Source: an uncultured Lachnoclostridium sp. (GTDB taxonomy: Bacteria > Bacillota > Clostridia > Lachnospirales > Lachnospiraceae). From it: a stretch of 64,000 bases of DNA. Both the position numbers and the translations under genes were made by a program. The DNA is taken from contig CAMMSL010000001.1 in assembly GCA_946499505.1 (NCBI GenBank), positions 124,001 through 188,000 on the forward strand. Direction: 5' to 3'. Below are positions 39,036 to 57,201 of the stretch, piece after piece (the stretch's first letter is position 1; each line of letters begins with the position of its first letter). Under the pieces are notes generated by a model. The model saw nothing but the letters and a program-made list of their open reading frames with translations, ran no database searches and was not told the origin of the DNA.

Positions 39036-39076
39036 CTTCCGCGCCCCCTTCTTACATTTTGTTAATTTACAGCTGC

Positions 39077-39212: not shown

Positions 39213-39214
39213 AC

Positions 39215-39252
39215 AAAAAATAAAGGCATACCTCCATCAAGGTATACCTTTA
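39215..39252 (-). terminator. Intrinsic terminator after the first Hsp70 gene
   Basis: Stem of AAAGGTATACC pairing with GGTATGCCTTT (one wobble), followed by ATTTTTTG on the minus strand, 88 bases after the stop of the 39340-40881 gene. It may limit read-through into the second Hsp70. Confidence 0.8.
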
Positions 39253-39339
39253 TTGTAAATAAATCTTCGTTCGATTAAAGTCACGTTTAATCAACTATGG
39301 CGCAACTTTCGAAAATTGATTTTCAAATATGCAACAGAA

Positions 39340-40881: not shown

Positions 40882-40906
40882 CACTTCGCCCTTCTTTTCA
40901 TATATT

Positions 40907-41425
40907 TTAATGGTTATAGATTCCCACGGAAACATTTACCTTTTTCAGGATCATGCCATGCCACCGGTACCCGCATCCGAACACCTTAACAATCCTGTTC
41001 CCGAGCTCTTCCTGACAGACATCTACTCTTTCCAATGGTTTCTGAAGTTCCGGATCATATTCATCATTTGTGCAGCAGTAGTAAATATCAACCTCGTTGT
41101 CTTCCAGCACCGTGGTCAGAGCATCAATATATCCCCCCAACAGCCCAAGCATATCTTCATTGATATTACCGCTTTCCTTCATCCTGTCCACGTCTTTCAG
41201 CATATCATCGCGCAGCCGGATATAGTCCATAAGATATTTTTTCTGGTTTCTTCTTTTTAACTCCTGATATTCCTTATAGTAACACCCCAGTATCTCCTGC
41301 TGATTGTCAAAACTGTCCATGATTTTCTCCATCATTTCTTCCTGGGCGTCCATCTTTTCAAACAATCTGTTCAACTGGAAGACTGCCCTTCTCTCATTTT
41401 TCTTTTTCATGATCCGCTTTGTCAT
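40907..41425 (-). CDS. GrpE-like nucleotide exchange factor
   Basis: 172 residues. A long N-terminal coiled coil (about residues 8-75, rich in Lys/Glu/Met) is followed by a small beta domain whose end, VFGCGYRWHGMILKKVNVSVG, matches the GrpE pattern (GYxxxGxxLRPAxVxV) and is preceded by an E-E-L-GN turn. GrpE is normally next to DnaK, as here: the first Hsp70 gene starts 25 bases downstream. The similarity is low, so it is probably specialised for these short Hsp70s. GGAGG lies eight bases before the ATG. Confidence 0.7.
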   Translation of the reverse strand: MTKRIMKKKNERRAVFQLNRLFEKMDAQEEMMEKIMDSFDNQQEILGCYYKEYQELKRRNQKKYLMDYIRLRDDMLKDVDRMKESGNINEDMLGLLGGYIDALTTVLEDNEVDIYYCCTNDEYDPELQKPLERVDVCQEELGNRIVKVFGCGYRWHGMILKKVNVSVGIYNH

Positions 41426-41454
41426 TTCATTGTCCTCCCTCGTACTGCATCACT

Positions 41455-43302
41455 TTATCCTCTGTGAAAATTTGCATCAAAATATCTGACCAGCCGTTCT
41501 CTGGCCTTCTTTGTTTTGACCAGATTCAGCCAATTAAACACCGGTGTTTCTTTGTCATGGATATCGTATTCAAACATCACTTTGTCTCCGTATCGCAAGG
41601 TCTTGCCAAGCTGTGTCGGCTCTTTGCAGCCATTTACATAGGCTTTCTGTAAATGGAGACCAACCTCTTCATCCACTGCAAATGCAAAATCGAGAACTGT
41701 CGCTGCCATCTCAATCTCGTATTCCTTTCCTGATCCGTCCTGTACAACCATTGTCGGAGAACCGGAATCCATATGTTTTTCGAGCCATCTGCTGAGGAAT
41801 CTGATGGCTTCTCTGGTATATACATATTCAAACCATCTTACTGTCGCATGCGGGATATCCCTTTCAGGTCTGTGTTTATCATGATCAGAGATGATCTCTA
41901 TCTGATCTCCTGCCCTGAGTTTTCGTCGAAGCGACTCTTTCTCCATTTTACCGTTGATCAAAGCATATTTTGCGCAGATGCCGATATTGCGGTCGATCGC
42001 AAATGCAAAATCAAGAACGGTGGCTCCGTCTTCGATCAACATAGACGTCCCGTCTTTTTTAAACACCGGGATCATCTTCGTCTCAAATGTTCCGCCCTCA
42101 TTAAAAAGATCTACTGACAGACCATTGCGAAAATCCTGTACATCAGCTACCAGAATACCATGGTCATATTCCAGATGCTGTGTTTCCGACTGGATATGCA
42201 GTCTGTATTTCGTTCCGTACGCATCTTCCATTATGTAACAATACTGCTCCCCGTACTTCGGATACTCGATCTCTGTGATCGTAAAATGATATCTGCAGGC
42301 ATGCAGATTGCTGTAAAAGCTGAAGAAAATATCCTCCGGATCACGCTGAGACAGATCGCTGGTAATCAAAAACACGTCAAAAAGCGGAACATTCTTCTTC
42401 GTCAGGACCCGTTCAAGATCATCAGCTGTATCCATCATTCCCGTAAGCTTTGAAAAAATATCATCCTCGCTGCGTTCGATGAAGTCAAAAGAGACGACAT
42501 TATCACTCTGAACCCCACCGCGAAGCACCATTCTTTTTGCTGTCTCGATCACACCGTCTTTTCCATAAAGCGTATCACTATTCTGCTTCAGGATTTTGCA
42601 GTATTTTGCACCAACACGCCGGAACATCTCCGGATTTTCTATTTCAAAACAGAGATTAGCCAGTTCATCTGCCAGTTTGTGGATGTGAAACGCCCTGGCC
42701 ACAGGTATAATCACTGTCCGGGTATGATAAGCTTTCTTCCTCTGCTTTTCTTCCGGGAAGACCGAAATAGTCCTCAGATTGTGGATCCGGTCGGCACATT
42801 TCACGTATACCGCTTTCCGATTATGCTTCTTCTGGATTTCCGCACGGAACTTCCGATCCGAAAGATCGTCCAGATCCGCCGGTGATATTTCCGGATCTCC
42901 TGAAAGCTTACGGCTTTCCTTTGTTACCGCATTTACCATGTCAGCCACATTGCTGCCGAATTCCTTTTCCAGCTGCTCCACAGTGACATTACAGTCCTCA
43001 ACCACATCATGAAGGATCGCCGATACAATAACGTCTGTCTCATGTCCGATTTCCGCCAGGATCATCGCCACTGAAAGAGGATGCGTAATATACGGATCTC
43101 CCGTTTTACGCCGTGTATCTCCATGTACTTTCAATGCGAAATTGTATGCATTGCGTAATGCAACTACATCCGGAAGGCCATGCTTTTTCATTTCTCTCAC
43201 AAGATTAGAGAACATCTGGTCAATCCTCACGCGTTCCTCCTGTGTCAATGGTTTCCTTTCTTTTTCTTTACGTTTTTCCTCTGTGGAACCTGACGCACCC
43301 AT
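41455..43302 (-). CDS. RelA/SpoT-like HD protein with degenerate synthetase and two TGS domains
   Basis: 615 residues. HD hydrolase domain: ITHPLSVAMILAEIG, AILHDVVED (metal-binding His-Asp at about 98-99) and DRIHNLR. The middle (about 225-385) follows the order of a (p)ppGpp synthetase domain, with EYPKYGEQYCY, an aligned IQSETQHLEYDHG end, but lacks the usual catalytic residues. Two TGS domains follow (TVLDFAFAIDRNIG and TVLDFAFAVDEEVG). Normal RelA/SpoT has one TGS plus helical/ZFD/ACT domains. Start: second ATG, since GGAGG is seven bases upstream of it; it overlaps the end of the XRE gene region. Likely a ppGpp hydrolase-like or sensor protein of this operon; enzyme activity is inference. 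Confidence 0.8.
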   Translation of the reverse strand: MGASGSTEEKRKEKERKPLTQEERVRIDQMFSNLVREMKKHGLPDVVALRNAYNFALKVHGDTRRKTGDPYITHPLSVAMILAEIGHETDVIVSAILHDVVEDCNVTVEQLEKEFGSNVADMVNAVTKESRKLSGDPEISPADLDDLSDRKFRAEIQKKHNRKAVYVKCADRIHNLRTISVFPEEKQRKKAYHTRTVIIPVARAFHIHKLADELANLCFEIENPEMFRRVGAKYCKILKQNSDTLYGKDGVIETAKRMVLRGGVQSDNVVSFDFIERSEDDIFSKLTGMMDTADDLERVLTKKNVPLFDVFLITSDLSQRDPEDIFFSFYSNLHACRYHFTITEIEYPKYGEQYCYIMEDAYGTKYRLHIQSETQHLEYDHGILVADVQDFRNGLSVDLFNEGGTFETKMIPVFKKDGTSMLIEDGATVLDFAFAIDRNIGICAKYALINGKMEKESLRRKLRAGDQIEIISDHDKHRPERDIPHATVRWFEYVYTREAIRFLSRWLEKHMDSGSPTMVVQDGSGKEYEIEMAATVLDFAFAVDEEVGLHLQKAYVNGCKEPTQLGKTLRYGDKVMFEYDIHDKETPVFNWLNLVKTKKARERLVRYFDANFHRG

Positions 43303-43304
43303 GA

Positions 43305-44447
43305 TCATCCCTCCTGTCTCATACTCGTTTTCATCACCCGTTTCAGATAATGGTAAAACTTGTTGTCGTCTTCTACTGTTACCATCTCCATCCGGAACAA
43401 ATTGCGTGTCACCACATCATTTACGATTTTGTCGATTTCACTTTGAACGATCATCTTCTTGTGGACATCAGTAAGAGGAAACTCCGGATTCTCTCCCCTG
43501 CTGTACAGTTGAACCGCCATATCCGCAAGTTTTTCTATTTCTTTCCCCGCCTGGATCTTAGGATAGTCCATCAGCAGATGAGATGCCAGTTCTTCCGGAG
43601 ATACATCCAGCGAACATCTGGAGAGAGCAACACATTGAACACAGGGCGATGCGCCATTTCCCTTGGACACGGAGCTCAGCATTCCCAATCCCCCGATATA
43701 TTCATCTGAATTACCGGATGGGCGATGGAAGATCATCTGCGCCTTGTCCCGCAGGTTTTCATATGATAATGAAATAAATACATGTTTCTCTGAGAGTTCC
43801 AGCTTTCCCCTGTAAACATGAGTACTTCCTCCAAGATCAGAAATGTACTTCTTTACGTCTATCCCGCGCCACTGCCTGCGCATGATCTCAGCATAGCGCT
43901 CATCCGCATCTTCTTTCTTCATATTCAGGACCGCAATTACATTATAGACTTTTACTTCCCCCTCTTCCCCGTCATGATAGATATACATAAGCCCGCTTTT
44001 TAAAGCATCTGCATCCTCTGCAAACTCCTGACCTTTGTAAGGAGACGTATCGAAATAGTAAACCTGATACAGACCTTCATATTTCATATAAATAGCCATC
44101 GGAAGATCTGTAGAATAGGGATCTTCCTGCTCACTCAGGTCCGTAAACAAAAAATCGTCAATCGTGCAGTGAAATACCCCTTTATTCTTGTGCAGAGTGA
44201 TGAGGAAAGGATCCAGAGTGGGCAGCTGCTCTCCCTTCTTAATACGAGAATAAACCGGAGCTGTAACTCCTAATTCACGCGCCATATCCCTATCGAGAGC
44301 AATACCCAGTTTCTTTTGAAAAAAATCAAGATTCTTTCTGATATTATCCTGGATGGTATTAATTTCATCAACCGTAATGCCTCCGTTAGCATTTGCGGAG
44401 TCCGTACTTGTTTTCTGGGTACATTTCTTTTCATTAGCTGTTGGCAT
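43305..44447 (-). CDS. HTH protein with large C-terminal domain, first gene of the left wing
   Basis: 380 residues. An N-terminal Cro/C1-like helix-turn-helix (MARELGVTAPVYSRIKKGEQLPTLDPFLI) is followed by about 290 residues of unknown fold with two Cys pairs (CVQCVALSRC). ATG at 44447 has GGAGG eight bases upstream. The promoter in front contains a 38-bp palindrome over the -10 box, so this protein is probably its own repressor and senses something through the C-terminal part. Confidence 0.75.
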   Translation of the reverse strand: MPTANEKKCTQKTSTDSANANGGITVDEINTIQDNIRKNLDFFQKKLGIALDRDMARELGVTAPVYSRIKKGEQLPTLDPFLITLHKNKGVFHCTIDDFLFTDLSEQEDPYSTDLPMAIYMKYEGLYQVYYFDTSPYKGQEFAEDADALKSGLMYIYHDGEEGEVKVYNVIAVLNMKKEDADERYAEIMRRQWRGIDVKKYISDLGGSTHVYRGKLELSEKHVFISLSYENLRDKAQMIFHRPSGNSDEYIGGLGMLSSVSKGNGASPCVQCVALSRCSLDVSPEELASHLLMDYPKIQAGKEIEKLADMAVQLYSRGENPEFPLTDVHKKMIVQSEIDKIVNDVVTRNLFRMEMVTVEDDNKFYHYLKRVMKTSMRQEG

Positions 44448-44462
44448 AAAAAATCCCTCCTC

Positions 44463-44524
44463 ATAATGAATATCATAATTGATGGTTATGAATTCATTAT
44501 AAGGCGGGGTATAAGAATTGTAAA
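44463..44524 (-). promoter_or_regulatory. Promoter and 38-bp operator palindrome of the left-wing operon
   Basis: Minus strand TTTACA (44519-44524), 17-base spacer and perfect TATAAT (44496-44501). A near-perfect palindrome, ATAATGAAT-a-TCATAA...TTATGA-ATTCATTAT (44463-44500), covers the -10 box and the start site. It is the only strong promoter I find for the genes down to 31 kb. The 44525-44679 stretch beyond it shows no gene. Confidence 0.75.
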
Positions 44525-44679
44525 TATGGTTTTTATGGAATCTAGATTTCATTTTTGGAATTCATCTTTCTATCTATCTGATCTAGATGAACGCTAAGTA
44601 ACAATATATATTCGAATCTTTCATTCCATTTTTTATATAATATCTCTTTTATTTCATCAATACTAATAAATAACTTTTC

Positions 44680-46500
44680 CTATCTAGAACTAATTAACCG
44701 TTCTCGCACCGCATCAATATCTTTCTGTGTTAATCCATCAAGAAATTCATTTCTCAACGATTCTATCTGCCAAAAATGGGTAACTCTTTTTCTAATCGAA
44801 TCACTTAATTTCATATATAGCCGTGTTCCAGGACGGGGTATACATTGAATAAAACTTTTAGAAGTTTTGATTTTATTTTTGATTAGTGTATCTACGGTGA
44901 GATTTAAAGACTTTACAGTTTCTCCATACATACCAAACATAATGAACGCAGAATAGCTAATATCTTTATCTCGCAAAATATCCAAAAGCTTTATCAATTG
45001 TGCCTTGGAGTAGTTTTTTTGATTTTTTACTAACACATCATCGTCAAAGCTCTCTATTCCCAGCCAAATCGAGCTACATCCGGCTTTCTTCATTAATTCT
45101 AATGTGTTTTCTGTCAGCAAATCCACTCTTGTTTCGCATTGCCAGTTAATAGTGATGTTATTCTCAATAATGCCTTTGCACAATTCTTCGGTATATGCTT
45201 GACTTATCGTAAAAGTCTGATCAATAAAGAACACTTCCTTGCATCCCTGACTTTCTAATTGCTTGAGTTCTCTGATAACATTTGTAATGTTTTTATATCT
45301 AACCCTTTTCCCATAGATATTATAGCAAAATATGCAATTATACGGACAGCCAGTAGTGTTTTGAAGAATCGCCCATTTTCTCTTTAATACGTGATTATTG
45401 TCAACATAACGGTATCCATAGTAATCATTTAAATCAATCAGAGAATAGTCTATATGGCTATTTTCTACAGTCAATTCAATATCAGAATCAACCACACAGC
45501 TTTTAACATATCGGCCATTTTCCCTGAAAACAATTCCATGTATGTTGTTTAATTCTGTTTTACTTTTTAATTCTGCAATAACACGTCCTAAACGATGCTC
45601 ATAATTCCCACAAAAAATGATATCTGGAGCAATATCGTTCAATATCAGCTTATAATCTACCGTTCCGTGCGAACCACAAACAATTAATTTATCATATTTA
45701 CAACTACTTTGTATGGCATTGACTGTTTTAGCGAAAACAACAAATCTTTTATCCACAAAATACGCTTGATACTGGTCTATAGGAGAAGATGTCACGACAA
45801 TATATTGGTAATTATCTCCTATTATATCAACAAGCTGATCTATTGAATAATGGTAAACTCTATTGTCAAATAAATCTACTGTGAAACCTTTCAACAGCAA
45901 ATCCGACTTTACCTGCATCATGCATATTGGCGGTTGTAAAAAAGAAGTACCCGACAAAAACTCAGGAATCACAAGCAGTACATCTGATTTTGTTGGTCTA
46001 AAAATTTTTCTGATGTTTTCAATAGTATACGCAATGGTGTCTGCTAAATACAACGGAACAGATTTGTATGCTTTTTCCAATAAATCTGTACATTGTTTGA
46101 TTTGTTTTACAGACAAAACTTTACTTGTCTCACGAATAAATTTAGCTACTGCCGCAAGACCTTTTGGTGTTTGTATCAAATCACCGGATATATACATTAC
46201 TGCATGAAATATTTTCCTCTGACATGTAACATCAAAAAATTTGATATAAAAACCACAAAAATCAACTATTTGATTGACATAAATACCTTTTTGTAAAATA
46301 TAGGTAACCAGATGTTCAGTCACGATTTTCATTTCCTCGCCGGAAACAAATTTTAAATAGTATATGCTAAACGCCTGCATATAATTAAGGAACTCATGCT
46401 CACTTACATTACTCATTTGTCGCATAACAGAATGAAAAATATTATGCTGCTGCGCTTCTTCCATGAACACTAAGTTCTTTACCTGTTCGTAATCAATCAT
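44680..46500 (-). CDS. B12-binding-type radical SAM enzyme with long N-terminal domain
   Basis: 606 residues from ATG 46500. About 165 helical residues come first, then a cobalamin-binding-like Rossmann domain (VLLVIPEFLSG, LFDNRVYHYS, VVTSSP, LIVCGSHGT), then a radical SAM core with CPYNCIFC (CxxxCxxC) and the GIESFDD and FIMFGMYGE motifs. Such enzymes methylate or rearrange unreactive carbons using a 5'-deoxyadenosyl radical and B12 (family knowledge). It is the last gene of the radical SAM/synthetase cluster; its start is 18 bases after the stop of the preceding radical SAM gene. Confidence 0.88.
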   Translation of the reverse strand: MIDYEQVKNLVFMEEAQQHNIFHSVMRQMSNVSEHEFLNYMQAFSIYYLKFVSGEEMKIVTEHLVTYILQKGIYVNQIVDFCGFYIKFFDVTCQRKIFHAVMYISGDLIQTPKGLAAVAKFIRETSKVLSVKQIKQCTDLLEKAYKSVPLYLADTIAYTIENIRKIFRPTKSDVLLVIPEFLSGTSFLQPPICMMQVKSDLLLKGFTVDLFDNRVYHYSIDQLVDIIGDNYQYIVVTSSPIDQYQAYFVDKRFVVFAKTVNAIQSSCKYDKLIVCGSHGTVDYKLILNDIAPDIIFCGNYEHRLGRVIAELKSKTELNNIHGIVFRENGRYVKSCVVDSDIELTVENSHIDYSLIDLNDYYGYRYVDNNHVLKRKWAILQNTTGCPYNCIFCYNIYGKRVRYKNITNVIRELKQLESQGCKEVFFIDQTFTISQAYTEELCKGIIENNITINWQCETRVDLLTENTLELMKKAGCSSIWLGIESFDDDVLVKNQKNYSKAQLIKLLDILRDKDISYSAFIMFGMYGETVKSLNLTVDTLIKNKIKTSKSFIQCIPRPGTRLYMKLSDSIRKRVTHFWQIESLRNEFLDGLTQKDIDAVRERLISSR

Positions 46501-46517
46501 AATAGATACCCTAAAAA

Positions 46518-47597
46518 TCAATGAAATTTATTCAGTAAATCTGCTCGAGATTTCATATCATCGTTATATCCTGTAGGCACAAAACGTGATCGTTGAAAAA
46601 GTGTAATCAGATATTGCATTTGTGCTTCAGGCGTATCAAACTTCTGTTCCTCAGTCCATCTGCAGGAACACAGACGTCCATCAGGCAAAGCAAAAATATC
46701 ATACAGACCTTCATGGCACGGGTACCATGGGCATCTTTTACAGAGTGCATCTGCACTCGAAACATCATAATGCGCGCCTTTTTTACTGTTTTTCACAGTA
46801 ACAAATACATCTCCAAAACGATACCTAAAGCAAGGCGTTCCAAATCTCCGACTGTATTCATGAGAATAGACCTCATCACAGCGATCAAGAAATTCTTTCT
46901 CTAAAGAATTTACTTCGCTGTAGAAATTTTGCCTTTCTTGAGAAAACGGTGCCGGGACAGAAACAATATCCAAAATCTTCAGGTCGCACCCCAACTCTTG
47001 GCAAAATTTAATGATTTCAAAAACCTCTGTTTTGTTTTTCTGACTGTATACCATATTTAGTCTTAATAAATTGCCATGGGCATTCAAATATTTAATACCG
47101 TTTATAATGTCGCTGTGACATTTGACATTGGAAATATCTTTCAAAACATCTTCTTTTAATGTGTCAAAACTAACTGCAAACATGACATTTGTATTTAAGG
47201 CATCTATGACCGATTTATTTTTGATAATCTGAGAACCATTGGTATTTACCAACACATACAAACCAGTTTCACTAAGATATTTCAATATTTCATCAATTTG
47301 CGGATGGAGAAATGGTTCTCCGCCGCTGATGCGGATTTTTGTAATGCCGAGTTTAGTTGCAATTTCCACATATTCCTTGATCATATCCAAACTCACGCAG
47401 TCTTTTTCAGATGCCGTAGTTTCTCCGCCAAATCCGCAATACATACATTTAAAATTGCAAAGCTTGGTTGCAGGAAATGTCAAAAATGGACACCATTCTT
47501 TTTCTTTTAATTCATCCCTTTGCGTACAATATGCAACATTATCAATTGCAGGATCAATTGCTTTATCTTTTGTATGAAAATCTATATATTTTTTCAT
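46518..47597 (-). CDS. MoaA-like radical SAM enzyme
   Basis: 359 residues. CNFKCMYC (Cys47, 51, 54) binds the SAM cluster; RISGGEPFLHP and VNTNGS are typical of the MoaA/PqqE class. The C-terminal CKRCPWYPCHEGLY and CSCRW segment gives extra Cys residues for one auxiliary cluster. GGGGAG lies before the ATG. Lies between the SPASM enzyme and the B12-type enzyme in one orientation. Substrate unknown; class suits peptide or amino-acid modification. Confidence 0.9.
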   Translation of the reverse strand: MKKYIDFHTKDKAIDPAIDNVAYCTQRDELKEKEWCPFLTFPATKLCNFKCMYCGFGGETTASEKDCVSLDMIKEYVEIATKLGITKIRISGGEPFLHPQIDEILKYLSETGLYVLVNTNGSQIIKNKSVIDALNTNVMFAVSFDTLKEDVLKDISNVKCHSDIINGIKYLNAHGNLLRLNMVYSQKNKTEVFEIIKFCQELGCDLKILDIVSVPAPFSQERQNFYSEVNSLEKEFLDRCDEVYSHEYSRRFGTPCFRYRFGDVFVTVKNSKKGAHYDVSSADALCKRCPWYPCHEGLYDIFALPDGRLCSCRWTEEQKFDTPEAQMQYLITLFQRSRFVPTGYNDDMKSRADLLNKFH

Positions 47598-47653
47598 AAA
47601 ATCTATCTCCCCTCACATAATATATATGCTAATCTTACTTCACAGGAGCGAAC

Positions 47654-49120
47654 TTACAGCCGCCACCACAACTTAGGCGAACCACAGCTGGCGCTGTAAT
47701 CCGGACAACCTGCTGCCTGATCTACTGCCACATCATGTGTTGTGACAGGATCAACCAAGAAACATAAACGTGTTGTTTCCCTTTTTTCTTCCGCTGCATT
47801 ATCCGAACAGGCCCCAACGCCAAGAAGCACGTCACATTTGATTTTCAGAGTTTCAATCAGGGAGTACTTGCTATTTTGACATGTTACTTTATTCGATATT
47901 GTAGGACATCCGCCCATACACAATGGCAGGACATTACACTTCCTACATTTATCGACTACAAATGGATTAAATAAAATATAACCCACCTGTGTCATAATGC
48001 TTTTCGAATTTGCTCCAGCTAAATTTACGATATTTCCAATACACATATCGGGATTAGATATATCATGCCAACACTTGTATACACTTCCATCTGGTGCAAT
48101 CACTTTTGAGTTTATTGAATCAGCAGAGCAATAGTTACTTTTGGGCATGGGATAATTAGGGTAATATTGAAAATTAAACCCTTTTTTTATCAATGTTTTT
48201 TCAAAATCTGCAAATTTGAGCGCATAGTCTTCTTTGCTTAGGCAAGTATCGCTGATAGATTTACAATAATCTGTGGATGGTTTTACATGTCCCAAATACA
48301 CATACGCTTTCTGTAATTCATTCTCCAACAATATATCCAACAACTCATCTGTACAGTGTTCATTATTTTTGTCTATGTTAACTCGAATAGCTACACCAAT
48401 TCCTGCATCCAACGCCTTTTTTATGTTTTTAATGATGACATTGAATGTAGGTTTTGAACTATTTTTAAGTTTTCTTCTGGCATCATGAACCTTAGCAGGG
48501 CCATCAAGAGTCACCTGAACACGGGAGATTTTGTATTTCAAGAAATTTTCAATTGCATCCGCATCCATCAAGTATCCGTTGGTAATGATTTGCGCCGAAT
48601 AATCAGCTCCATAACATTCCACATAGGACATAAATTTTTCAGACAAACTCCAGATTGTGTCTTTCGCCAAGAGCGGTTCGCCACCATACCATGCTATATC
48701 AATCTTATTCTTATTCCTTGCAGCGTTTTTTACCTCCCGGCAAATTCCATCCATTACTTCCTGATTCATAAACTCGACCCGCGTTTTTTCATAACAATAG
48801 GGGCAGTCAAAATTGCAAGTATAAGTTGGCGCAATAGACATGCTGAAATGATTTGTCTGGAATTTTCCCTGAAGATTTTTGAATCTCAAAAAATTCAACT
48901 CATCAAAGCAATCATCGACTATAAAACCGCCCTTTTTCATGTCCTCAATTAAGTCCTGATGAATCTTAGTACGAGGTACTTTATTAAATGTATCCATTTC
49001 AATTTCTTTAATAATTTTCAAAAAGGCGTCACTTGCCAAAGCCAGTGCGCATGTCATGCTGTTAAACGCAAACTTTTTTTCTTTATAATCAAATATTATA
49101 TTATATTTTGAAATTTTCAC
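47654..49120 (-). CDS. Radical SAM/SPASM peptide maturase-type enzyme
   Basis: 488 residues from GTG 49120 (AGGTGATCG upstream). N-terminal about 90 residues look like a peptide-recognition (RRE-like) region; the core has CNFDCPYC (Cys102, 106, 109), WYGGEPLL and VTLDGP; the SPASM domain has CSADSINSKVIAPDGSVYKC and CRKCNVLPLCMGGC. These are typical of enzymes that modify ribosomal peptides. The last residues are odd: CPDYSASCGSPKLWWRL follows the family's normal end by about 45 residues and looks like a small Cys/Trp-rich peptide. No separate precursor gene is visible. Confidence 0.9.
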   Translation of the reverse strand: MKISKYNIIFDYKEKKFAFNSMTCALALASDAFLKIIKEIEMDTFNKVPRTKIHQDLIEDMKKGGFIVDDCFDELNFLRFKNLQGKFQTNHFSMSIAPTYTCNFDCPYCYEKTRVEFMNQEVMDGICREVKNAARNKNKIDIAWYGGEPLLAKDTIWSLSEKFMSYVECYGADYSAQIITNGYLMDADAIENFLKYKISRVQVTLDGPAKVHDARRKLKNSSKPTFNVIIKNIKKALDAGIGVAIRVNIDKNNEHCTDELLDILLENELQKAYVYLGHVKPSTDYCKSISDTCLSKEDYALKFADFEKTLIKKGFNFQYYPNYPMPKSNYCSADSINSKVIAPDGSVYKCWHDISNPDMCIGNIVNLAGANSKSIMTQVGYILFNPFVVDKCRKCNVLPLCMGGCPTISNKVTCQNSKYSLIETLKIKCDVLLGVGACSDNAAEEKRETTRLCFLVDPVTTHDVAVDQAAGCPDYSASCGSPKLWWRL

Positions 49121-49142
49121 TAGCGATCACCTGTCTTATTAT

Positions 49143-51155
49143 TTAATGCAATCTTGTTCCCTCCGGCACAATATCATCAACAAAAATCACCTGACATCCA
49201 CAGGCATTGTTCGTTGCTGCAAGAAGCATACCTTCACTGGTAACGCCTGTAATACGGACCGGTTTTAAATTCACTATTACAATAATCTTTTTCCCAATCA
49301 GCTGCTCAGGCGTATAATATGCCTTCAGGGAAGAAACTATCGTTCGTTCTTTGAGTCCATCAAACAGAGTAAGCTTGTAGCAGCTGTGTGATTTTCTTAT
49401 TTCCTGACATTTCAGCACCTTGCAAACCCGAAGATCAATGGCATCAAATTTGTCAAGATTAATCATATCCTGCACCGGAGATACCGGATCGGGATCGCCA
49501 TATTTTATCTTCTTTTCTTCCGGCTCTACCTTTTTATTCAGCTCTGAGAGCGGAACCATTTCCTCCTCAGTTTTTTCATTGGAGAAATCTAAAAGATGGA
49601 TATACCGTTCCTTATCTATTGCATAAAGAAAGAGGTACAGTCTCGGTCCTTTCTCTTTATTTAGCAGCAAGCGGTAAACCGCTTTGAAAAACGCCCCCTG
49701 ATATTTCTTCAAATTCGGATTGTCCTCGCCAAAAATACGTTTCGGTATATCATATAACTTCGAATTCAATTCATCCAGGGTATACGATTCTCCCTGTAGA
49801 TAATCATGCAGGTATTTAACTTCCTGCTTCTCTTCATCCGACAAAGTCTCATACACTTCCCAGTTCCTGTACGGAACCAGTCTATTTACATTCTCTGGAG
49901 AGCAGTTTTCCAGCCAATACTGTGCAAGCTGAAGTCTTTCTTTAAAGTCATCGTATTTGTAGGGCTGTCCAATTTTTTCAAAGACGGTTTCAAGAAGGGA
50001 AACATTGAAGTCCACAACTGATCCCAATTGAACAAGCAACGACATGGGCACCGTCTTAATCGGGCGGTCAGTCAGGAGGCAACTTTCCATAACCGATTTC
50101 ACATGATCATTCGCCTCTCCGGTGATATACTGATTATATTGTTTGTCAAATTCAAAATACTGACGTAAAATGCCTTCATCAAAGCACAGATCAAACGCTT
50201 TATTCGGTTCCACTCTTGCGTAAAGCCACAGCAGAATTTCCGGCTGATATACCTTCAGCAGTGTGTCCGGAGTCAGGTTCAGTCCCGATGACCCCGACAT
50301 TTTTCCTGTGGTACCCTTGATCCCGATAAATTCATATCCCTGGAAAATAGGCGCGTCTATTCCGAATATCTTCTTCGCAATGACACGGCTAGTGTCATAA
50401 GAACCATTCGGAGCCGCATGGTCTTTTCCGCCCGGCTCAAAATCAACCTGCTCATACGCCCATCTCATCGGCCAATCAACTTTCCATGCCAGTTTACAAT
50501 CTGTGTCTGTGTTGAAGTTAAATTTCCCCTCATATCCGCACTTGCAGACATAATCCGCCACCTTTGTTGTATCGTCATATCCAATGATTTTTGTCGTATC
50601 CCTGTGGCAATGTGGGCAGTAAATACTTACCGGATAGTAGGTTTCTTTTTCCCCCTCTTCGGCAGCCTGAGTTCTAAAGCTGTCCAAAATATCGAAAATT
50701 TCTCCTCTTTTATCGAGGGTGGTCAAAATATAATCTCTGTATTTTCCGGATCTATACATCTCCGCCTGATGCCTGTAATCTAATTTAATCCTAAATTTGT
50801 CAATAGCACGTTCAAACTCCCGTTCAAAATAATCCGCATAAGACTTTTCTTCCGAGCCAAACGGGTTTGGGATATCCACATAAGGATATCCGATATATTT
50901 TTCAAATCCTTCGGTCACCTTCTCTACATTAACCGGGACTTTTCTTAATCTGTCATATTCATCCCATGAGAAAAGTAATTTAGCCTTTTTTCCTTTTCTT
51001 TCTAACGCTCTAACAACAAATAAACTTGTTGCTATATCTCTGAAATTTCCAATATGAATCGATCCAGACGGGCTGATTCCAGCTGCACACACAAATTCTT
51101 CTTTATCTGGATTCTTCTTAATAATCTTATCTGCTATTGTATCTGACCAATGCAT
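49143..51155 (-). CDS. lysK: Class I lysyl-tRNA synthetase with C-terminal EMAP-type tRNA-binding domain
   Basis: 670 residues. Class I signature HIGN at 34-37 and KMSGS at 285-289; start MHWSDTIADKII and the fold order match class I LysRS (an archaeal type, rare in bacteria), with four zinc Cys at 180, 183, 204 and 206. The last about 105 residues are a tRNA-binding OB domain of the EMAPII/Trbp111 type (DLRVCKVLKCQEIRKSHSCYK and VTSEGMLLAA), usually found on MetRS. All catalytic motifs are kept. The gene has its own promoter (51227-51255) and is inside a radical SAM cluster, so it probably serves the pathway rather than replacing the housekeeping LysRS. A decayed second copy is at 53842-53994. 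Confidence 0.88.
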   Translation of the reverse strand: MHWSDTIADKIIKKNPDKEEFVCAAGISPSGSIHIGNFRDIATSLFVVRALERKGKKAKLLFSWDEYDRLRKVPVNVEKVTEGFEKYIGYPYVDIPNPFGSEEKSYADYFEREFERAIDKFRIKLDYRHQAEMYRSGKYRDYILTTLDKRGEIFDILDSFRTQAAEEGEKETYYPVSIYCPHCHRDTTKIIGYDDTTKVADYVCKCGYEGKFNFNTDTDCKLAWKVDWPMRWAYEQVDFEPGGKDHAAPNGSYDTSRVIAKKIFGIDAPIFQGYEFIGIKGTTGKMSGSSGLNLTPDTLLKVYQPEILLWLYARVEPNKAFDLCFDEGILRQYFEFDKQYNQYITGEANDHVKSVMESCLLTDRPIKTVPMSLLVQLGSVVDFNVSLLETVFEKIGQPYKYDDFKERLQLAQYWLENCSPENVNRLVPYRNWEVYETLSDEEKQEVKYLHDYLQGESYTLDELNSKLYDIPKRIFGEDNPNLKKYQGAFFKAVYRLLLNKEKGPRLYLFLYAIDKERYIHLLDFSNEKTEEEMVPLSELNKKVEPEEKKIKYGDPDPVSPVQDMINLDKFDAIDLRVCKVLKCQEIRKSHSCYKLTLFDGLKERTIVSSLKAYYTPEQLIGKKIIVIVNLKPVRITGVTSEGMLLAATNNACGCQVIFVDDIVPEGTRLH

Positions 51156-51209
51156 TCCTATCCTCCCTTATCTCTTTCCAATTAATCCAAGACTACCTTT
51201 TAGTCAGTG

Positions 51210-51262
51210 ATATACACAATGTAATTAGTATACCAGAAGAAACATTAAAAGCCAAGGATAAA
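51210..51262 (-). repeat. Promoter repeat A: lysK promoter, similar to 55610-55662
   Basis: Minus strand TTGGCT (51250-51255), 17-base spacer, TATACT (51227-51232) in front of lysK. The surrounding about 53 bases (GATATACACA...AATTAGTATACCAGAAGA) recur at 55610-55662 with point changes. The 51156-51426 leader otherwise shows no gene and no T-box that I can recognise. Confidence 0.75.
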
Positions 51263-51426
51263 TCTTTCTTGAATTTCACACACTCTGGAATTCCGCTGCT
51301 ATCTGATCCAGGTGCAAAAAAACTGTAAAAGCGAATGTCCCTATTGGTACTAAATATATCATTGAAGCAGAGGTCGTTCTGGGAAATGCTGAAATTATTC
51401 TCCAGGCGGCATAGCCGCAGATGATA

Positions 51427-52506
51427 TCATGAGTATACACCAAACAAATCATTGAAATAGTCCTTCATTGAAGAATACTGGAAAAACACACAGAAAAATC
51501 GATCAAGGCCAATTCCCATGCTGACAGTATCAGGCATACCAATTCTCAACACTTCCAGAAAATCCCGAGACAGCTCTGCCTGTATCCCCTTTTGGAGCAA
51601 ATATTCCATTTGTTCCATAAAATAACAATATACCTTATCATAACTGTTTTCATCCAAATACCCATGTCCTATTGATTGATTATGATATTCCCATCGAATT
51701 TCAGTTCTTTTGCCCTCAATGCATTTTACAAACGGAGAAGATACCGGGGCATCCAAATAGATAATATTTCTATCTGTAACTTTTTTACCGATTTCATCAT
51801 AGCGAACAACTTCTACATCACTTAATGGTGCATGGTCCACATTCAGATCATCTGCAATTTGACATGATTTTTGCATTAAAAAAATAAATGTTTCTAAGAT
51901 ATGATCTGCTTTAAAAAATGGGGCAACCGTTTCCAGACTTAAATATTCAGGACTCCCGTACTGTTGAAAATATACATCCCTGGCAACGTACCCGATTTCA
52001 AATGACGGCTTTAAGGTACAGCAAACTTCTCTTTTTAAATTCATTTCATGTGTCAGTCTCAAATATGATGTAACATATTGGCCTTTTACCTTGAGCGGCG
52101 ACGCCTGACTTACTCCACGGTATCTTGTGGTAATTGGCTCATAATATTTTTTATATCCTATATTCTTTAAATATTCTTCAAGCTCTTCTATAACCCTGTT
52201 TTTACATTCGCGTTTCTTATTACAATTATTAGAAATAGAATATCTGAAACTGTTCGTTCCAAGTCTGGAACGCTCACCGACAACTTCTATTTTCCTCACA
52301 GCATATACATTGTTTCCTTTATGATTTTTAAGAAGAGAAATCCGTACTTTAATTATATCATAGCGATTTATCGTTATCGAATCAAACATTAAATTATCAA
52401 CCATCAGTTGATCCAATCCCCCGCCGCTGACATATATAAATGTTACTGTTTTCCTTTTTTGTATTTTTAAAACCCGACAGATAACTTCCCTTTCATCACG
52501 ATTCAT
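51427..52506 (-). CDS. Class II lysyl-tRNA-synthetase-like protein, shortened
   Basis: 359 residues from ATG 52506 (AAGG nine bases upstream). The N-terminal OB-fold-like part (about 1-85) is followed by a class II synthetase core: motif 2 region FEIGYVARDVYF with PEYLSLE, and motif 3 MGIGLDRFFCVFF. Most like LysRS-II/PoxA, but shorter than LysRS (about 490) and with motif 2 changes (usual FxRxE region is AxRDV), so ordinary tRNA-lysine charging is doubtful. PoxA/EpmA relatives attach lysine or beta-lysine to proteins (family knowledge). It follows the B12 radical SAM gene by four bases. Confidence 0.75.
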   Translation of the reverse strand: MNRDEREVICRVLKIQKRKTVTFIYVSGGGLDQLMVDNLMFDSITINRYDIIKVRISLLKNHKGNNVYAVRKIEVVGERSRLGTNSFRYSISNNCNKKRECKNRVIEELEEYLKNIGYKKYYEPITTRYRGVSQASPLKVKGQYVTSYLRLTHEMNLKREVCCTLKPSFEIGYVARDVYFQQYGSPEYLSLETVAPFFKADHILETFIFLMQKSCQIADDLNVDHAPLSDVEVVRYDEIGKKVTDRNIIYLDAPVSSPFVKCIEGKRTEIRWEYHNQSIGHGYLDENSYDKVYCYFMEQMEYLLQKGIQAELSRDFLEVLRIGMPDTVSMGIGLDRFFCVFFQYSSMKDYFNDLFGVYS

Positions 52507-52510
52507 GCAC

Positions 52511-53818
52511 TTAAACCTTCTCAAAATTCATTTCGTCTTTAAAATTTGAAAATATTTGCAGAACATTATTATATGACATTCTGCTTAATTCTGATTCCAC
52601 TGGAAAAAGATGAATTGAATTCGTACTTTCTGTTTTCATTTTCCAACTATGTTTCCATGCCCCGTGTTCGAACATATCGTCCAGAACAGTATCCGGAAAA
52701 GATAATATTGCACTTGTATTTATATAATCGATATATTTTCTGTTGTATTTTATAAAATCAAGTGTTTCCTGTAATTCTTGAAATGTCAAATCGGGATATG
52801 TCATCACATTCACTTTCACAGATATTCCCCGGTCATGGAACTCTCTGATCATAGTCTGAGCCCGTTCTACATAGTTTTTTCCATCATTAGTTTTCCTCAT
52901 CATTTTAAGCACTCTTGGAGCAACGGTCTCCACTCCAATGCTCACACTTTTCATACCCGCCGGCGCCAGCAAATCAATGTATTTTTCCCACGGATTTTCG
53001 ACATGCATCTCAGCTGACCATGAAATATTTTTATCAAGTAAATATCTCATTTTTGCAACAGTCAATTCCGGATTGATACCAAAATTAGCGGCTAACAGCG
53101 TATAATAACTTTCTTTTCCAAACAGGTCAAAACAGTTTTCGAAATCCTTAATAAATTTGGTGACGGAAAAACATCTGTATCGGACAGAATGCTTGGAATG
53201 TACACAATGTATACATTTTCTCGGACAACTTCTGCTTTCTTCAATAAATGGACGGTATTCATAGTAGTTCTCATAAAGGCAGAAATCCACGTCCGGCAAC
53301 TTCTCAACATCAAATATACGACAATAGTCCTCTTCTGCTATATTATCATCTCTTCTTATTACCCCTGTATGCTTTATTTCTGGAGATACATAGTACTCAT
53401 ATATAGCCTCTTCTCCCTCGCAAAGACAAATGGCATCAAGCTTAGTATTCTCCTTAAAAATCTGTTTTCCTATACAGCGTATATGCCATCCCCCCGCAAT
53501 GATTCTGATATCCTTTTCTTCTTGTTTTATATAATCAATAATTTCGAGTGCTGCTAAATATGCCATTCCGCTCATTATACTCAAGGCAGCCATTTGAAAT
53601 TTATGTATTTTCTTAAGCTCAGAAAAAACCCGTTTAAATCCGAGTACAGATTCAGGCGCTATAATTTTAACTTGTAACCCCTGACTTTCGCACCAGGTTC
53701 CGATTGTCAACAGCCCAGGATTAAAACATTTTCTTTTTACATCCAATAAACTCCCATCAACATCAAAATCTATCATTCCAGATGAAACACAGGGGACATC
53801 AACAAACAAAATATCCAT
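52511..53818 (-). CDS. B12-binding-type radical SAM enzyme
   Basis: 435 residues. N-terminal cobalamin-binding-like Rossmann domain (ILFVDVPC, GLLTIGTWCESQG, IAGGWHIRC), then the radical SAM core with CPRKCIHC (Cys198, 202, 205), VSIGVETVAP and VNVMTYPDLT. Only distantly similar to the other B12-type enzyme of the cluster. AGGAGAGAG precedes the ATG. First intact gene of the cluster, 24 bases downstream of the remnant of a second lysK. Confidence 0.9.
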   Translation of the reverse strand: MDILFVDVPCVSSGMIDFDVDGSLLDVKRKCFNPGLLTIGTWCESQGLQVKIIAPESVLGFKRVFSELKKIHKFQMAALSIMSGMAYLAALEIIDYIKQEEKDIRIIAGGWHIRCIGKQIFKENTKLDAICLCEGEEAIYEYYVSPEIKHTGVIRRDDNIAEEDYCRIFDVEKLPDVDFCLYENYYEYRPFIEESRSCPRKCIHCVHSKHSVRYRCFSVTKFIKDFENCFDLFGKESYYTLLAANFGINPELTVAKMRYLLDKNISWSAEMHVENPWEKYIDLLAPAGMKSVSIGVETVAPRVLKMMRKTNDGKNYVERAQTMIREFHDRGISVKVNVMTYPDLTFQELQETLDFIKYNRKYIDYINTSAILSFPDTVLDDMFEHGAWKHSWKMKTESTNSIHLFPVESELSRMSYNNVLQIFSNFKDEMNFEKV

Positions 53819-53841: not shown

Positions 53842-53994
53842 TCAAAGTATTCTTGTTCCTTCCGGTACTAATGAATCAATAAAGACAACCTGGCATCCAC
53901 AGGCATTATTAGTAGTCGCCAGAAACATTCCTTCACTTGTAACTCCTATTCCCCCTTGGTTTGAAATTTGCCACTACGATAATTTTTTTCCAAT
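53842..53994 (-). pseudogene. C-terminal remnant of a second lysK
   Basis: The last about 50 codons of an EMAP-type domain like that of lysK: IGKKIIVVANFKP, a one-base frameshift, then GVTSEGMFLATTNNACGCQV and PEGTRIL-stop. These match the end of the intact gene residue by residue with few changes. Just upstream the sequence jumps to TTCCAATTATTCCAAGACTA, which matches the leader of intact lysK (51177-51194). So most of this copy was lost by a deletion with its ends in a short shared sequence. Confidence 0.85.
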
Positions 53995-54103
53995 TATTCC
54001 AAGACTATATTTTACTATGAAACAAAACCTTCCGGGTAGCCCCAAAAGCACAGACTACCCCCATCAAACTTAAAAAGGTTGATTTAGAACTTAACTGACA
54101 GAC

Positions 54104-55336
54104 CTATGCTACAACTACTGGGATCTCCCAGCCAAGCGCTTTTAACTTCTTTAGGTACGCATTGATTTTGCGCTTCTTATTGAACTGATTGTAATACTCA
54201 GCTCCCAAATCTTTGAAAACAACACCATCCTTGAGAATGTGGTATATTGCAATGAGCATGGAATGAGCCACTGCCACATAGGCACGCTTTGGTCCGCGAT
54301 GGACACTGATTCTCACAAATTGGGCATAAAAGTAGGACTTCTTGTTTTTTACAGCTGCATGTGCACAGGTAATCAATGTTGTCCGCAAGAGAGCGTTTCC
54401 CTTTCTGGTTTTCTCAGACTTACGCTTTTTCGCACTTTCATTGTCGCCTGGGCATAATCCCGCCCAGGAAGAAATGTGCTTATCTGTGGGGAAACGTCCC
54501 ATGTCTGTACCAATGACGGAAATAATGGCTTGTGCACTGGTGTTACCTATACCGGTCACATCCTGGATAGCCTGCGAATCCTGCTTTTCTTCCGGCTTCA
54601 TAAAGTTGTCAATTTCGTCGTCCAGATTTTTGATATGCTCGTTCAGTTAGTCCAAATGGGCAAGAAGCTCTTTCATCATCCTGAGCTGGAGAGGAGACAT
54701 CACGCCATTCAGGTCATCGATGATTTGCTCCTTTGTTGCTTTGAGGTTATAAGCAATGGCTTTCCGCTCATACATCTCATTGTATTTTGCCTCGTCAAAG
54801 GATTCGCCGATAAGAAGATATTCCAGAATATTGCAGGCACTCTTGCCATTGATATCTGATACAGTTCCAGACAACTTGATGTTGGCTCCCTCAGCATTTT
54901 CTGGAGACGATTCAGTTCTCTGGTGCGCTCACCCACAAGGCTTTTGCGATAGCGGACTAATTCTCGCAGTTCGCGCTGATCCTTGTCGGGAATGTAACTG
55001 GACTGGAGCAATCCATGCTGAAGAAGGTCTGCGATCCATTCCGCATCCTTTACATCTACTTTCCGTCCCGGAACAGCTTTCATATGGCGCGCATTAGCTA
55101 CGATAGCTTTCAGGTCAGAAGATTTAAGGATATTAAACAGGGACTTCCAATAAGAAGCTGTGCTCTCCATGGCGACCATTTCACAGCTACCCTCTTTGAG
55201 CCAGTCAGCCAATGTTAGAAGTTCTCTGGTGTTGCACCAAACTCACGTAATTCCTGCTTTCTACCGCATCGGAAGCAGGCAACGATAAGTTTTTATGCAC
55301 ATCGATACCACAACATTTGTCGTAAATTTTATCCAT
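54104..55336 (-). pseudogene. IS110-family transposase with frameshifts and a stop
   Basis: Reading from ATG 55336: CCGIDVHKN (first catalytic Asp), a frameshift, EFGAT, another shift, ADWLKEGSCEMVAMESTASYWK (Glu), DVKDAEWIADLL (Asp-Asp), a shift near 54850, ending in LAHLD-stop at about 54648, then the C-terminal Transposase_20 half with IGNTSAQAIISVIG and the Ser-containing SWAGLCPGDNES to 54104. The DEDD residues and the serine domain are all recognisable, but at least three frameshifts and one nonsense codon make it inactive. Confidence 0.88.
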
Positions 55337-55602
55337 CACCGGAACCTCCAGGGTGAAATTTACGGCACGGTACTCTGTCTCTTATCATTTTACTATACGT
55401 CCTTTTGCCTGTGATATGGCTGGACAGATGGTGGTGCAAATGAGAGTACCTGAAATCAGTTTAGTCAGCGGGCTACTAGCCCAAAATTTACACGATCTTT
55501 GCCGTTACACTAAGTATAAATAACGGCACAACTAAATTCAATAACCTACAGTCTGCGCAGTTTCATTTATGGTGGTGCTAAGTATGCAGGCATGGGGGTT
55601 TA
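55337..55602 (-). other. Non-coding left end of the IS110 relic, candidate bridge-RNA region
   Basis: About 265 bases upstream of the transposase start without an open frame. In IS110 elements the end upstream of the transposase encodes a structured bridge RNA (established for the family). Several short inverted repeats are present (for example GCCGTTA...TAACGGC near 55510-55540). Activity is unlikely given the broken transposase. Confidence 0.4.
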
Positions 55603-55609
55603 GTCAATG

Positions 55610-55662
55610 ATATACACATATCAATTAGTATACCAGAAGATAAATAAAATACCAAGAATAAA
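55610..55662 (-). repeat. Promoter repeat B: orphan promoter of the decayed lysK copy
   Basis: Minus strand TTGGTA (55650-55655), 17 bases, TATACT (55627-55632), in about 53 bases similar to the lysK promoter at 51210-51262. It now reads into the IS110 relic. Confidence 0.75.
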
Positions 55663-55716
55663 TCTTTTGAGTTAGCACATTAATAAGGTTGAAAAATGTA
55701 TTCTAAAATAGCAATG

Positions 55717-57201
55717 TCAATCACCCCCATTTACATATCGCAGTAAACTCCTGCACTTTCTCATCGGCATAAATACCTCAAATACCACATTATACTGCCT
55801 CATCATCTCCACCACATACTTCCTATATTCCCGCTCTAACTTCGTCTTCTGTCGCAAAAACAGCATCATCCCCTCCAAATCATACGGAGCCGAAATCACG
55901 TTCTGACTAAACCTCCTCGTTTTTCCTCTATAGTTTTCATATGCCAGAAAGAGTAAGGAAACATATTTCTCCTTTTTTTTCGGAAACAGAGGCAGACGTT
56001 CAAGTTCACGCCGCAGCTTATTCTGAAATACACACCATTCTCTTTTTCTTTCCCTGCTAAAATAATATTCCCGGATCTCTTGGAACAAAGAATTCAGTGG
56101 ATACTCATTTTTCATGTATTCCAGACACATCCCAATCTGGCTGTCCAGCCTCTCTTCTCTTGTCTGAATTGTCTTTATCTCTTCTTTTGTTTTGTACAAA
56201 CACGGAAAGCATGATTTAAGGATTTTCTGTACGCTCAGATGCCTGATGTCTTCCACCCGCCGGCGAAGCCTTTCATCGCAATATTCCCCTCCGTCCGTAT
56301 TGATAATAATATCTGCCATGAGGTCATAGAGTTCCAGTGACATCAGGATATGCTCCGATTCCTTGTCTTTATAAAGAGGTTCAAGGATTTTAGCAATATA
56401 CTCATAGATTTCCTCTCTCTTTTCTGATTCTTCACCTAAGAGCTGATTAAAATACGGAATTCCTTTTTGTCTCAACGTCATCCCCCGGCGGATGAAAGCA
56501 TCAAGCTCCATCCTTTTATACCCGCCGGCTTTCTGATATTTGAGTTCACTGTCGTTCGTCAGGATAATATTTGCATCTGACTGTAGCACTTCTCCCTCTG
56601 ATACGGTAGACAGTCTGTTTCTGCAATAAAAAGGGAGACTCTCATAACATGCAGCCTGGAGCATTCTGCTTAATCCATGCGGAACGATCAGATGAATTTT
56701 TTCATTTCCCGTGATTGTCCTATAAACAGAATAGAAAAAAGCCTCTCTGTCTTCGTTTTCTATACTGTCAAGAAACTTATTTTCTATTCTGGGCTTTCTT
56801 TCTGACGGGTGGAACCGAAGCTTACTCTCATCAAGCTTTTCCGCCTCTTCAACATTCCAGTCATAAAAGCAGTTGTCAAACGCCTTGTCCGAAGCGGCCA
56901 GCAACGGTAATAACTGTCTGGAAAATGCCCCTGTATCCATCACATATCCATGAATATTCTCATGAACACGGGACTCCCATCTGCTGCTCTCTACCTTTCT
57001 TGCCAGTGCAGTCACAATGTCCCCGTTTCCCAATGGATGGATCACAACTGCATTGTGGTCATATTCCGGAACAAATACTTCCAGGCATTTTTCTTCAATA
57101 TATTCCTCGTAACTTTTCGGGAAATCTTCATCTGTCCTGATAATCTTAAGTCCGCCTTTAGAAGGGATCCGCGACGCCAGATAATAATGCTCCTTTTTCA
57201 A
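55717..57201 (-). CDS. Possible GTPase-partner protein (GAP1-like by context)
   Basis: 494 residues from a TTG that overlaps the stop of the GTPase gene (TTGA) with AAGGAGG ten bases upstream. Start KEHYYLASRIPSKGGLKIIR, a middle with VVIHPLGNGDIVTALARK and HLIVPHGLSRMLQAACYESLPF, and a basic helical C-terminal half rich in Arg/Tyr. No catalytic motif I can name. Proteins with a similar N-terminal pattern accompany double-GTPase conflict systems as GTPase-activating partners; the link here rests mainly on its coupling to the GTPase. Confidence 0.5.
   Translation of the reverse strand: MKKEHYYLASRIPSKGGLKIIRTDEDFPKSYEEYIEEKCLEVFVPEYDHNAVVIHPLGNGDIVTALARKVESSRWESRVHENIHGYVMDTGAFSRQLLPLLAASDKAFDNCFYDWNVEEAEKLDESKLRFHPSERKPRIENKFLDSIENEDREAFFYSVYRTITGNEKIHLIVPHGLSRMLQAACYESLPFYCRNRLSTVSEGEVLQSDANIILTNDSELKYQKAGGYKRMELDAFIRRGMTLRQKGIPYFNQLLGEESEKREEIYEYIAKILEPLYKDKESEHILMSLELYDLMADIIINTDGGEYCDERLRRRVEDIRHLSVQKILKSCFPCLYKTKEEIKTIQTREERLDSQIGMCLEYMKNEYPLNSLFQEIREYYFSRERKREWCVFQNKLRRELERLPLFPKKKEKYVSLLFLAYENYRGKTRRFSQNVISAPYDLEGMMLFLRQKTKLEREYRKYVVEMMRQYNVVFEVFMPMRKCRSLLRYVNGGD

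Follow-up and report, generated by a model that had tools for sequence, protein, structure and literature searches.

In a 64,000-nucleotide stretch of the genome of an uncultured Lachnoclostridium sp. (the whole stretch is hereafter called the window; the source genome, G000, is a 3.08-Mb assembly of 84 contigs), six genes at 44680–53818 encode a complete class I lysyl-tRNA synthetase (LysRS), which we call LysI, a class II LysRS-derived protein, LysII, and four radical S-adenosylmethionine (SAM) enzymes. LysI, LysII and radical SAM genes occur together again in Lachnoclostridium sp. An131. Our best explanation, in which as a whole we have moderate confidence, is that the island is an AT-rich, horizontally acquired cluster for the biosynthesis of a small molecule. 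We regard the chances as evenly balanced that its product attacks class II LysRS, with LysII acting as a lysyl transferase and LysI conferring self-resistance.

The two lysyl-tRNA synthetase-type proteins

LysI (49143–51155, minus strand) is a complete class I LysRS with a C-terminal EMAP/tRNA_bind domain (matches at 1e-111 and 4e-20). It scores 386.9 bits against the class I LysRS model TIGR00467 (cut-off 147.55), which places it within that family, and has HIGN at residue 34 and KMSGS at residue 285, which we take to be the class I motifs. The initial annotation had named, as a finding that would speak against its proposal, that the two synthetases be the only LysRS genes of the genome. They are not: G000 has a separate complete class II LysRS (L015, 2211–4094; 675.4 bits), located between greA and a metallophosphatase gene, and LysI is therefore an extra enzyme. 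The C-terminal stretch of this class II LysRS matches the EMAP part of LysI (38%), and housekeeping class II LysRS often lie in long open frames of 653–677 residues, as in G000, the same-genus genome G308 and five genomes of the An131 genus.

LysI homologs with an E-value of 1e-40 or better were found in 12 of 397 genomes of the family including G000, that is, in 11 of the 396 others. Class II LysRS (at 1e-50) is missing from ten of these 11, two of which are only 69% and 85% complete, making the absence weak there; the remaining one, G092, has both classes. The same-genus genome G308 has class II LysRS only. Since ten of the 11 lack class II, class I LysRS in this family normally replaces the class II enzyme rather than accompanies it. 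In G092 (C192/L039 and C25/L041), the class I gene is cut by the end of its contig of 4.2 kb.

LysII (51427–52524, minus strand; the ATG at 52506 is a likelier start than 52524) comprises an N-terminal OB-like region and a catalytic core (tRNA-synt_2, 7e-13). It scores far below the cut-offs of class II LysRS models (TIGR00499, 44.9 of 427.6 bits; NF001756, 55.3 of 468) and of EpmA/PoxA models (TIGR00462, 25.2 of 286.9; NF006828, 33.4 of 264), and LysII of An131 likewise falls far under both sets. We aligned the two LysII with 13 LysRS rows representing 11 distinct genes (two genes are included twice). Of the 184 columns that are invariant in LysRS and overlap a LysII, 29 are retained by both LysII and 40 by one. 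Changed in both are F, N and E of FRNE and H and N of HNPEF in motif 2 and, ahead of motif 3, a Glu (separated by one residue from the (A/G/C)N pair), the Asn of that pair (to His) and the Glu of SEL (to Asp), all of which occur in 13 of 13 LysRS rows; the final FPTMK is missing from both. By contrast, both retain the motif 2 Arg (R182), E160, E198 and the motif 3 Arg (R342), and they have GHGYxDE in common. The losses presumably correspond to E264, H270 and E421 of E. coli LysU on the ATP/magnesium side, and the retained residues to R262, E240 and E278 on the lysine side; the LysU numbering and the assignment of the ATP-binding residues are assumed here. Judging by this alignment, LysII is not a normal LysRS: its ATP-side residues are lost, and the substrate-side Arg and two Glu are kept. 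Lysyl transfer would be the best reading of this pattern.

In a tree of 12 rows, from which three empty AspRS/AsnRS rows had been removed, the two LysII grouped together (100/100) apart from LysRS, a result that is only supportive in view of the long branches. The LysII of An131 aligns with the LysRS-type model from residue 4 on, so that its OB-type region has probably been retained. Within the 397 family genomes LysII was found in G000 only, and a search of 391 genomes of the class retrieved, besides G000, two matches of 28–29% in LysRS-type frames of 500–511 residues. Searches of plasmids, phages, genome contigs (with LysII itself as a query) and viral contigs for LysII returned nothing new.

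A second cluster, transfer of LysI and remains of another LysI gene

Using an alignment of LysI, we scanned 84,980 species genomes and kept the best 80 of at least 578 confirmed loci. Among these 80, the An131 locus was the only one with a LysII match (28.7% over residues 13–361, E-value = 2e-37), and its LysI was the closest to LysI of the window (95% identical, the next being 81%). The locus additionally matches the radical SAM core of B12rSAM2, one of the radical SAM enzymes of the island (32% over 151 residues). Its gene order is greA, metallophosphatase, LysI, a 405-residue radical SAM enzyme, a 340-residue radical SAM-type protein, a HAD hydrolase, a methyltransferase, LysII (386 residues) and a last ORF (open reading frame) of 249 residues, or 221 from a likelier start. 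The 405-residue enzyme is nearest to B12-type models and has no Pfam B12-binding match. The 340-residue protein scores 22.2 bits in Pfam, below the cut-off of 29.5, and contains CxxxCxxC. The last ORF, which has a peptidase-like look by eye, a label we do not claim, had no match in Pfam, NCBIfam or a PDB search. Junctions in the run are overlaps or 6–68 bp, and the guanine-cytosine (GC) content of the island genes from LysI on is 39.9–44.3%, whereas greA and the two genes that follow the run have 50.9–52.6%. Frames of at least 220 residues with CxxxCxxC are present at 13 of the best 80 LysI loci, one of the 12 other than An131 having a frame that overlaps LysI antisense; a run right after LysI was observed in An131 only. 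With a two-row LysII profile, eight of 16 genomes of the An131 genus matched at an E-value of 1e-6: An131 scored 757.9 bits and the seven others 28.8–33.3 bits, all of the latter inside lysS genes.

These results bear on the initial annotation, which had proposed one pathway for the synthetase-type and radical SAM genes and suggested a search for conserved order of all six. That the two kinds of gene belong together is supported, since LysI, LysII and a radical SAM core recur in An131 among otherwise different genes; the six genes are not conserved as a unit, and the common part is LysI, LysII and non-orthologous radical SAM enzymes. Whether the two synthetases always co-occur is weakly testable: LysII is present in two genomes and LysI lies within 4 kb of it in both, but the second genome was found via LysI. 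In the reverse direction, LysI occurs in 11 of the 396 other family genomes, and LysII was found in none.

An131 contains another synthetase-like biosynthetic cluster (L142, 5199–10867; G776:C28) beside integrase-like genes (by eye). It encodes a SPASM radical SAM enzyme, an amidohydrolase-GNAT fusion, a squalene-cyclase-like toroid protein, a B12-type-like radical SAM enzyme and a 309-residue class II synthetase core nearest to asparaginyl-tRNA synthetase/asparagine synthetase A.

Between the window genome and An131, LysI and some 120 bp of its promoter show a DNA identity of 91.2% over 2139 bp, whereas chromosomal stretches of the same genome pair are 70.1% (dus, 967 bp), 71.4% (metallophosphatase, 685 bp) and 73.9% (greA, 475 bp) identical. 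In a LysI tree with 23 rows, comprising the window and 22 loci from the top of the best 80, the two LysI are sisters with support of 100/100. Taken together, the identity difference and the sister pairing point to a recent movement of LysI with its promoter between genomes. No class II LysRS over the cut-off was found in An131, where the weaker matches include class II relatives of greater length, the 309-residue protein of L142 and LysII itself; LysI is thus the only LysRS found in this genome. The interval between greA and the metallophosphatase gene, which holds lysS in G000, has no lysS in An131. Within the An131 genus lysS is kept in 14 of 16 genomes, being missing from An131 and G788.

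The window also carries remains of a second class I LysRS gene, all on the minus strand and upstream of the LysII operon. A 104-nt remnant of the 3' end of a class I LysRS-EMAP gene (53844–53947) is 76% identical to the LysI gene, with 79 of its 104 positions matching LysI of the window and 77 of 104 matching that of An131, while the two LysI agree with each other at 95 of 103 aligned positions over the same stretch. Given these counts, the remnant does not stem from a recent duplication; it is the end of another, divergent LysI gene. The promoter/leader-like region of the LysI gene (51170–51267), which is also present in An131, has a 69-nt promoter copy at 55599–55667 (84%) and a 33-nt leader copy at 53982–54014 (85%). 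These two copies, belonging to the decayed gene, flank an IS110-family transposase broken into two fragments (54104–55212), which thus lies between the promoter copy and the remnant. Both operons of the island may therefore once have been headed by a class I LysRS.

Layout of the island and its radical SAM enzymes

All six ORFs lie on the minus strand in one direction, as initially annotated. The short gaps noted at the same time are found at all junctions (overlaps or 22–56 bp) except for one, the 271-bp gap upstream of the LysI gene, which contains the promoter-like sequence. Because of this spacing and the repeated promoter, the genes probably form two operons, one of B12rSAM1 and LysII and the other of LysI, SPASM enzyme, MoaA-like enzyme and B12rSAM2. 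B12rSAM1 (52511–53818), which heads the first probable operon, is a B12-binding radical SAM enzyme (Radical_SAM, 1e-14; B12-binding, 2e-9) with CxxxCxxC. The second operon continues after LysI with the SPASM radical SAM enzyme (47654–49120), a MoaA/viperin-like radical SAM enzyme with C-terminal cysteines (46518–47597) and the radical SAM enzyme B12rSAM2 (44680–46521), which has about 180 extra N-terminal residues. Of the two B12-type enzymes reported in the initial annotation, B12rSAM1 is confirmed by its Pfam match; B12rSAM2 is nearest to B12-type NCBIfam models and of that type by NCBIfam only, the B12-binding domain being absent from its Pfam matches. GC content is 41.2% for LysI, 32.8–37.0% for the other five island genes and 42.2–44.9% for three measured flanking coding genes. 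The one flank gene with which we looked for an empty insertion site had no match in G308. The island breaks a long minus-strand run (34007–44552 and 55717–63353) encoding Hsp70-like proteins (one by Pfam, one by eye), GrpE-like, HD-TGS RelA-type and AAA proteins, as well as two transglutaminase-like, double-GTPase, FtsW/RodA and penicillin-binding transpeptidase proteins.

The closest family of the SPASM enzyme is that of Clo7bot peptide maturases (TIGR04334), against which it scores 456.6 bits, below the cut-off of 600. It shares 43% identity with Paraclostridium bifermentans ctpM, next to which lie seven annotated Clo7bot peptides. Its C-terminal tail of about 60 residues (47654–47830) has a GC content of 50.8%, compared to 37.0% for the gene, and neither tail piece alone matched NCBIfam; another frame of the tail gives a Cys/Gly-rich end, SCGGGCKFAPVK. 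The tail is possibly a fused or decayed precursor peptide. Translation of five stretches in the three minus-strand frames revealed no Cys-rich Clo7bot-like precursor. At an E-value of 1e-60 the SPASM enzyme was found in three of 329 family genomes, namely, G000 and two with matches of 35–36%.

The MoaA-like enzyme scores best against MoaA (TIGR02668), yet below the cut-off (108 of 325.25 bits), and obtains 71 bits against viperins in PADLOC. MoaA and viperins act on nucleotides. Relatives of the second radical SAM protein of An131 (26–31%) adjoin thymidylate synthase and nucleoside-diphosphate kinase on two Streptomyces plasmids, and in four of the five regions opened, out of 27 matched records, they adjoin a 3'-5' exonuclease. 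Such matches and neighbours would suit a nucleoside warhead, a weak hint, as are all hints to the product given that radical SAM cores cross-match widely. A scan of viral contigs with B12rSAM1 found none and one with the MoaA-like enzyme seven loci (24–32%); when plasmids were searched with the radical SAM enzymes, all matches were distant. A trio of radical SAM protein, 3'-5' exonuclease and AAA ATPase recurs in plasmid regions of Agrobacterium, Streptomyces and Sinorhizobium (L154, L155, L156 and L157). In two of these cases thymidylate synthase and nucleoside-diphosphate kinase accompany it, and in two there is an anti-phage dGTPase or a DncV-like gene close by; the recurring trio perhaps represents an undescribed defence or DNA-modification system. 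In PADLOC, the exonuclease was the sole match of the L154 trio.

Proposed function, alternative explanations and known systems

In the mechanism that we propose, the radical SAM enzymes would build a warhead, and LysII would bind a lysyl group, most likely taken from Lys-tRNA, and transfer it to this warhead. The product would then be a lysyl-adenylate-like compound that inhibits ordinary class II LysRS. LysI, having an unrelated fold, would go on charging tRNA-Lys under inhibition of the class II enzyme, and it may in addition supply the Lys-tRNA used by LysII. Product, target, tRNA-dependent transfer and resistance are all inferred from the genes. The recurrence of LysI, LysII and a radical SAM core in An131 and the LysII residues lend support to the single pathway with lysyl transfer suggested by the initial annotation.

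Several observations weigh against this proposal. The two clusters have radical SAM genes that are not orthologous, and only two LysII clusters were found, the second of them by searching with LysI, so that it is not an independent count of linkage. Likeness of the SPASM enzyme to peptide maturases points to a peptide. Ten family genomes have switched from class II to class I LysRS with no radical SAM ORF seen nearby, and G788 is also without lysS and has no LysII match, hence lysS loss alone is not diagnostic. The An131 genome is a draft of unstated completeness, and the island itself may be partly decayed, as indicated by IS110, the LysI remnant and the odd SPASM tail. The structures predicted for LysII and for the ORF that follows it in An131 were too poor for use (mean predicted local distance difference test scores, pLDDT, of 35.2 and 37.2), and thus it is from the alignment that the LysII active site is read. 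No product, transporter or assay is on record for the cluster.

Several other explanations account for part of these data. One is a peptide pathway, in which a ribosomal peptide is modified by the SPASM enzyme along with the other radical SAM enzymes and is lysylated by LysII in the manner of EpmA or of peptide aminoacyl-tRNA ligases, with LysI as Lys-tRNA supplier or bystander. The Clo7bot maturase score, the similarity to ctpM and the alternative tail frame agree with it, but there is no Clo7bot-like precursor in the five stretches translated, the tail pieces match no NCBIfam model and the An131 cluster combines LysI and LysII with no SPASM-type enzyme among its assigned genes; we consider this pathway unlikely. 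Alternatively, LysI and the radical SAM genes might have nothing to do with each other: LysI would be a mobile accessory LysRS that inserted at this place and, by chance, took over from lysS in An131. Class I is indeed the only LysRS found in ten of the 11 other LysI-bearing family genomes, no CxxxCxxC was found in ORFs called at those 11 neighbourhoods, where several contigs end near LysI, and between the clusters LysII and the radical SAM genes diverge far more than LysI. Yet it is the closest of the best 80 LysI loci that alone has a LysII match, LysII was found in none of the 396 other family genomes, and remains of a second divergent LysI precede the LysII operon, all of which makes chance association quite improbable.

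The product could also be a lysine analogue that class II LysRS can load onto tRNA, LysI protecting the host by excluding it from protein. According to the passages of PMC1475646 on the subject, class I LysRS (LysRS1) is less accommodating to lysine analogues than class II LysRS (LysRS2), and no class II enzyme was found in An131. G000 keeps its class II LysRS, however, which would still load a toxic analogue, and LysII is left with no obvious role; the presence of both classes in G000 fits an inhibitor better than a charged analogue, and we judge the latter rather improbable. Finally, the initial annotation had mentioned an earlier report that class I and class II LysRS act jointly on an unusual tRNA, as is reported for tRNA-Pyl and tRNA-Other in passages of PMC2916919. 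LysII has lost the conserved ATP-side residues, no tRNA gene was detected by ARAGORN in the two stretches scanned, the window and L015 (16 kb, overlapping the window end), and Rfam gave no match at gathering scores in the window, L056 or L142. Joint charging by LysI and LysII therefore appears very improbable; the intact housekeeping class II LysRS of G000 may be a candidate partner in place of degenerate LysII.

LysRS is the sole synthetase described as occurring in both unrelated classes (passages of PMC1475646 and PMC2916919), and switching between them in bacteria has long been known. At both loci a mobile class I LysRS goes with a biosynthetic cluster, in one genome with both LysRS enzymes (G000) and in another where class II was not found (An131). 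It is conceivable, though we say so tentatively, that gut anaerobes make antibiotics targeting LysRS2, that portable LysRS1 immunity travels with the clusters and then replaces LysRS2, so that warfare drives class switching, and that LysII represents a new family of Lys-tRNA-dependent lysyl transferases. If true, there is a named strain in which to look for a LysRS-targeting natural product, as well as a new synthetase-derived transferase family.

The initial annotation knew of no described cluster with this composition, and we likewise found none in the open-licence literature searched. By analogy, the nearest precedent for LysII and LysI would be AcmF and AcmD of the ascamycin cluster as portrayed in passages of PMC12945691. 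There, AcmF is a truncated protein resembling alanyl-tRNA synthetase (AlaRS) that has lost most residues for ATP binding and alanine activation and uses Ala-tRNA from AcmD, an extra, more resistant AlaRS. The island similarly has two proteins for one amino acid: LysI, an extra synthetase that is complete, and LysII, a candidate synthetase-like protein that, from its aligned residues, appears truncated, with a tRNA-binding part kept and most ATP-binding residues lost. The synthetase-like protein of acm keeps the tRNA-binding part and transfers the amino acid, and the complete acm enzyme charges the tRNA. Unlike in acm, the complete enzyme of the island is of the other synthetase class, the amino acid is lysine instead of alanine, radical SAM enzymes stand in place of a nucleoside sulfamate pathway and the host is not an actinomycete. 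Passages of the same source describe SbzA, an extra isoleucyl-tRNA synthetase in the SB-203208 cluster, as having roles in both self-resistance and aminoacyl transfer. It resembles our proposal in being a synthetase homolog in a biosynthetic cluster, but it is one protein with both roles and belongs to the same class as the housekeeping enzyme.

Bacillus cereus also has both classes, LysRS1 (lysK) and LysRS2, with the class I enzyme acquired by transfer (passages of PMC2916919 and PMC1475646), and protection by LysRS1 against LysRS2 inhibitors was proposed in 2006 (PMC1475646), in passages that name no producer. In contrast to LysI, lysK has a T box (none was found here at gathering scores), and in the source passages it is not assigned to any biosynthetic cluster. 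EpmA/PoxA, the lysyl or beta-lysyl ligase for elongation factor P, is like LysII a class II LysRS relative outside housekeeping charging; LysII differs by its score (25.2 of 286.9 bits), about 95 extra N-terminal residues and the apparent loss of ATP-side residues. From the Clo7bot maturases, its closest family, the SPASM enzyme is set apart by a score below the cut-off, the extra tail and the lack of a visible Clo7bot-type precursor. The general design, a resistant extra synthetase combined with a synthetase-like transferase, is thus known. Within the reach of our searches, what is new is that the spare synthetase belongs to the other class, that the amino acid is lysine and that the chemistry is of the radical SAM kind.

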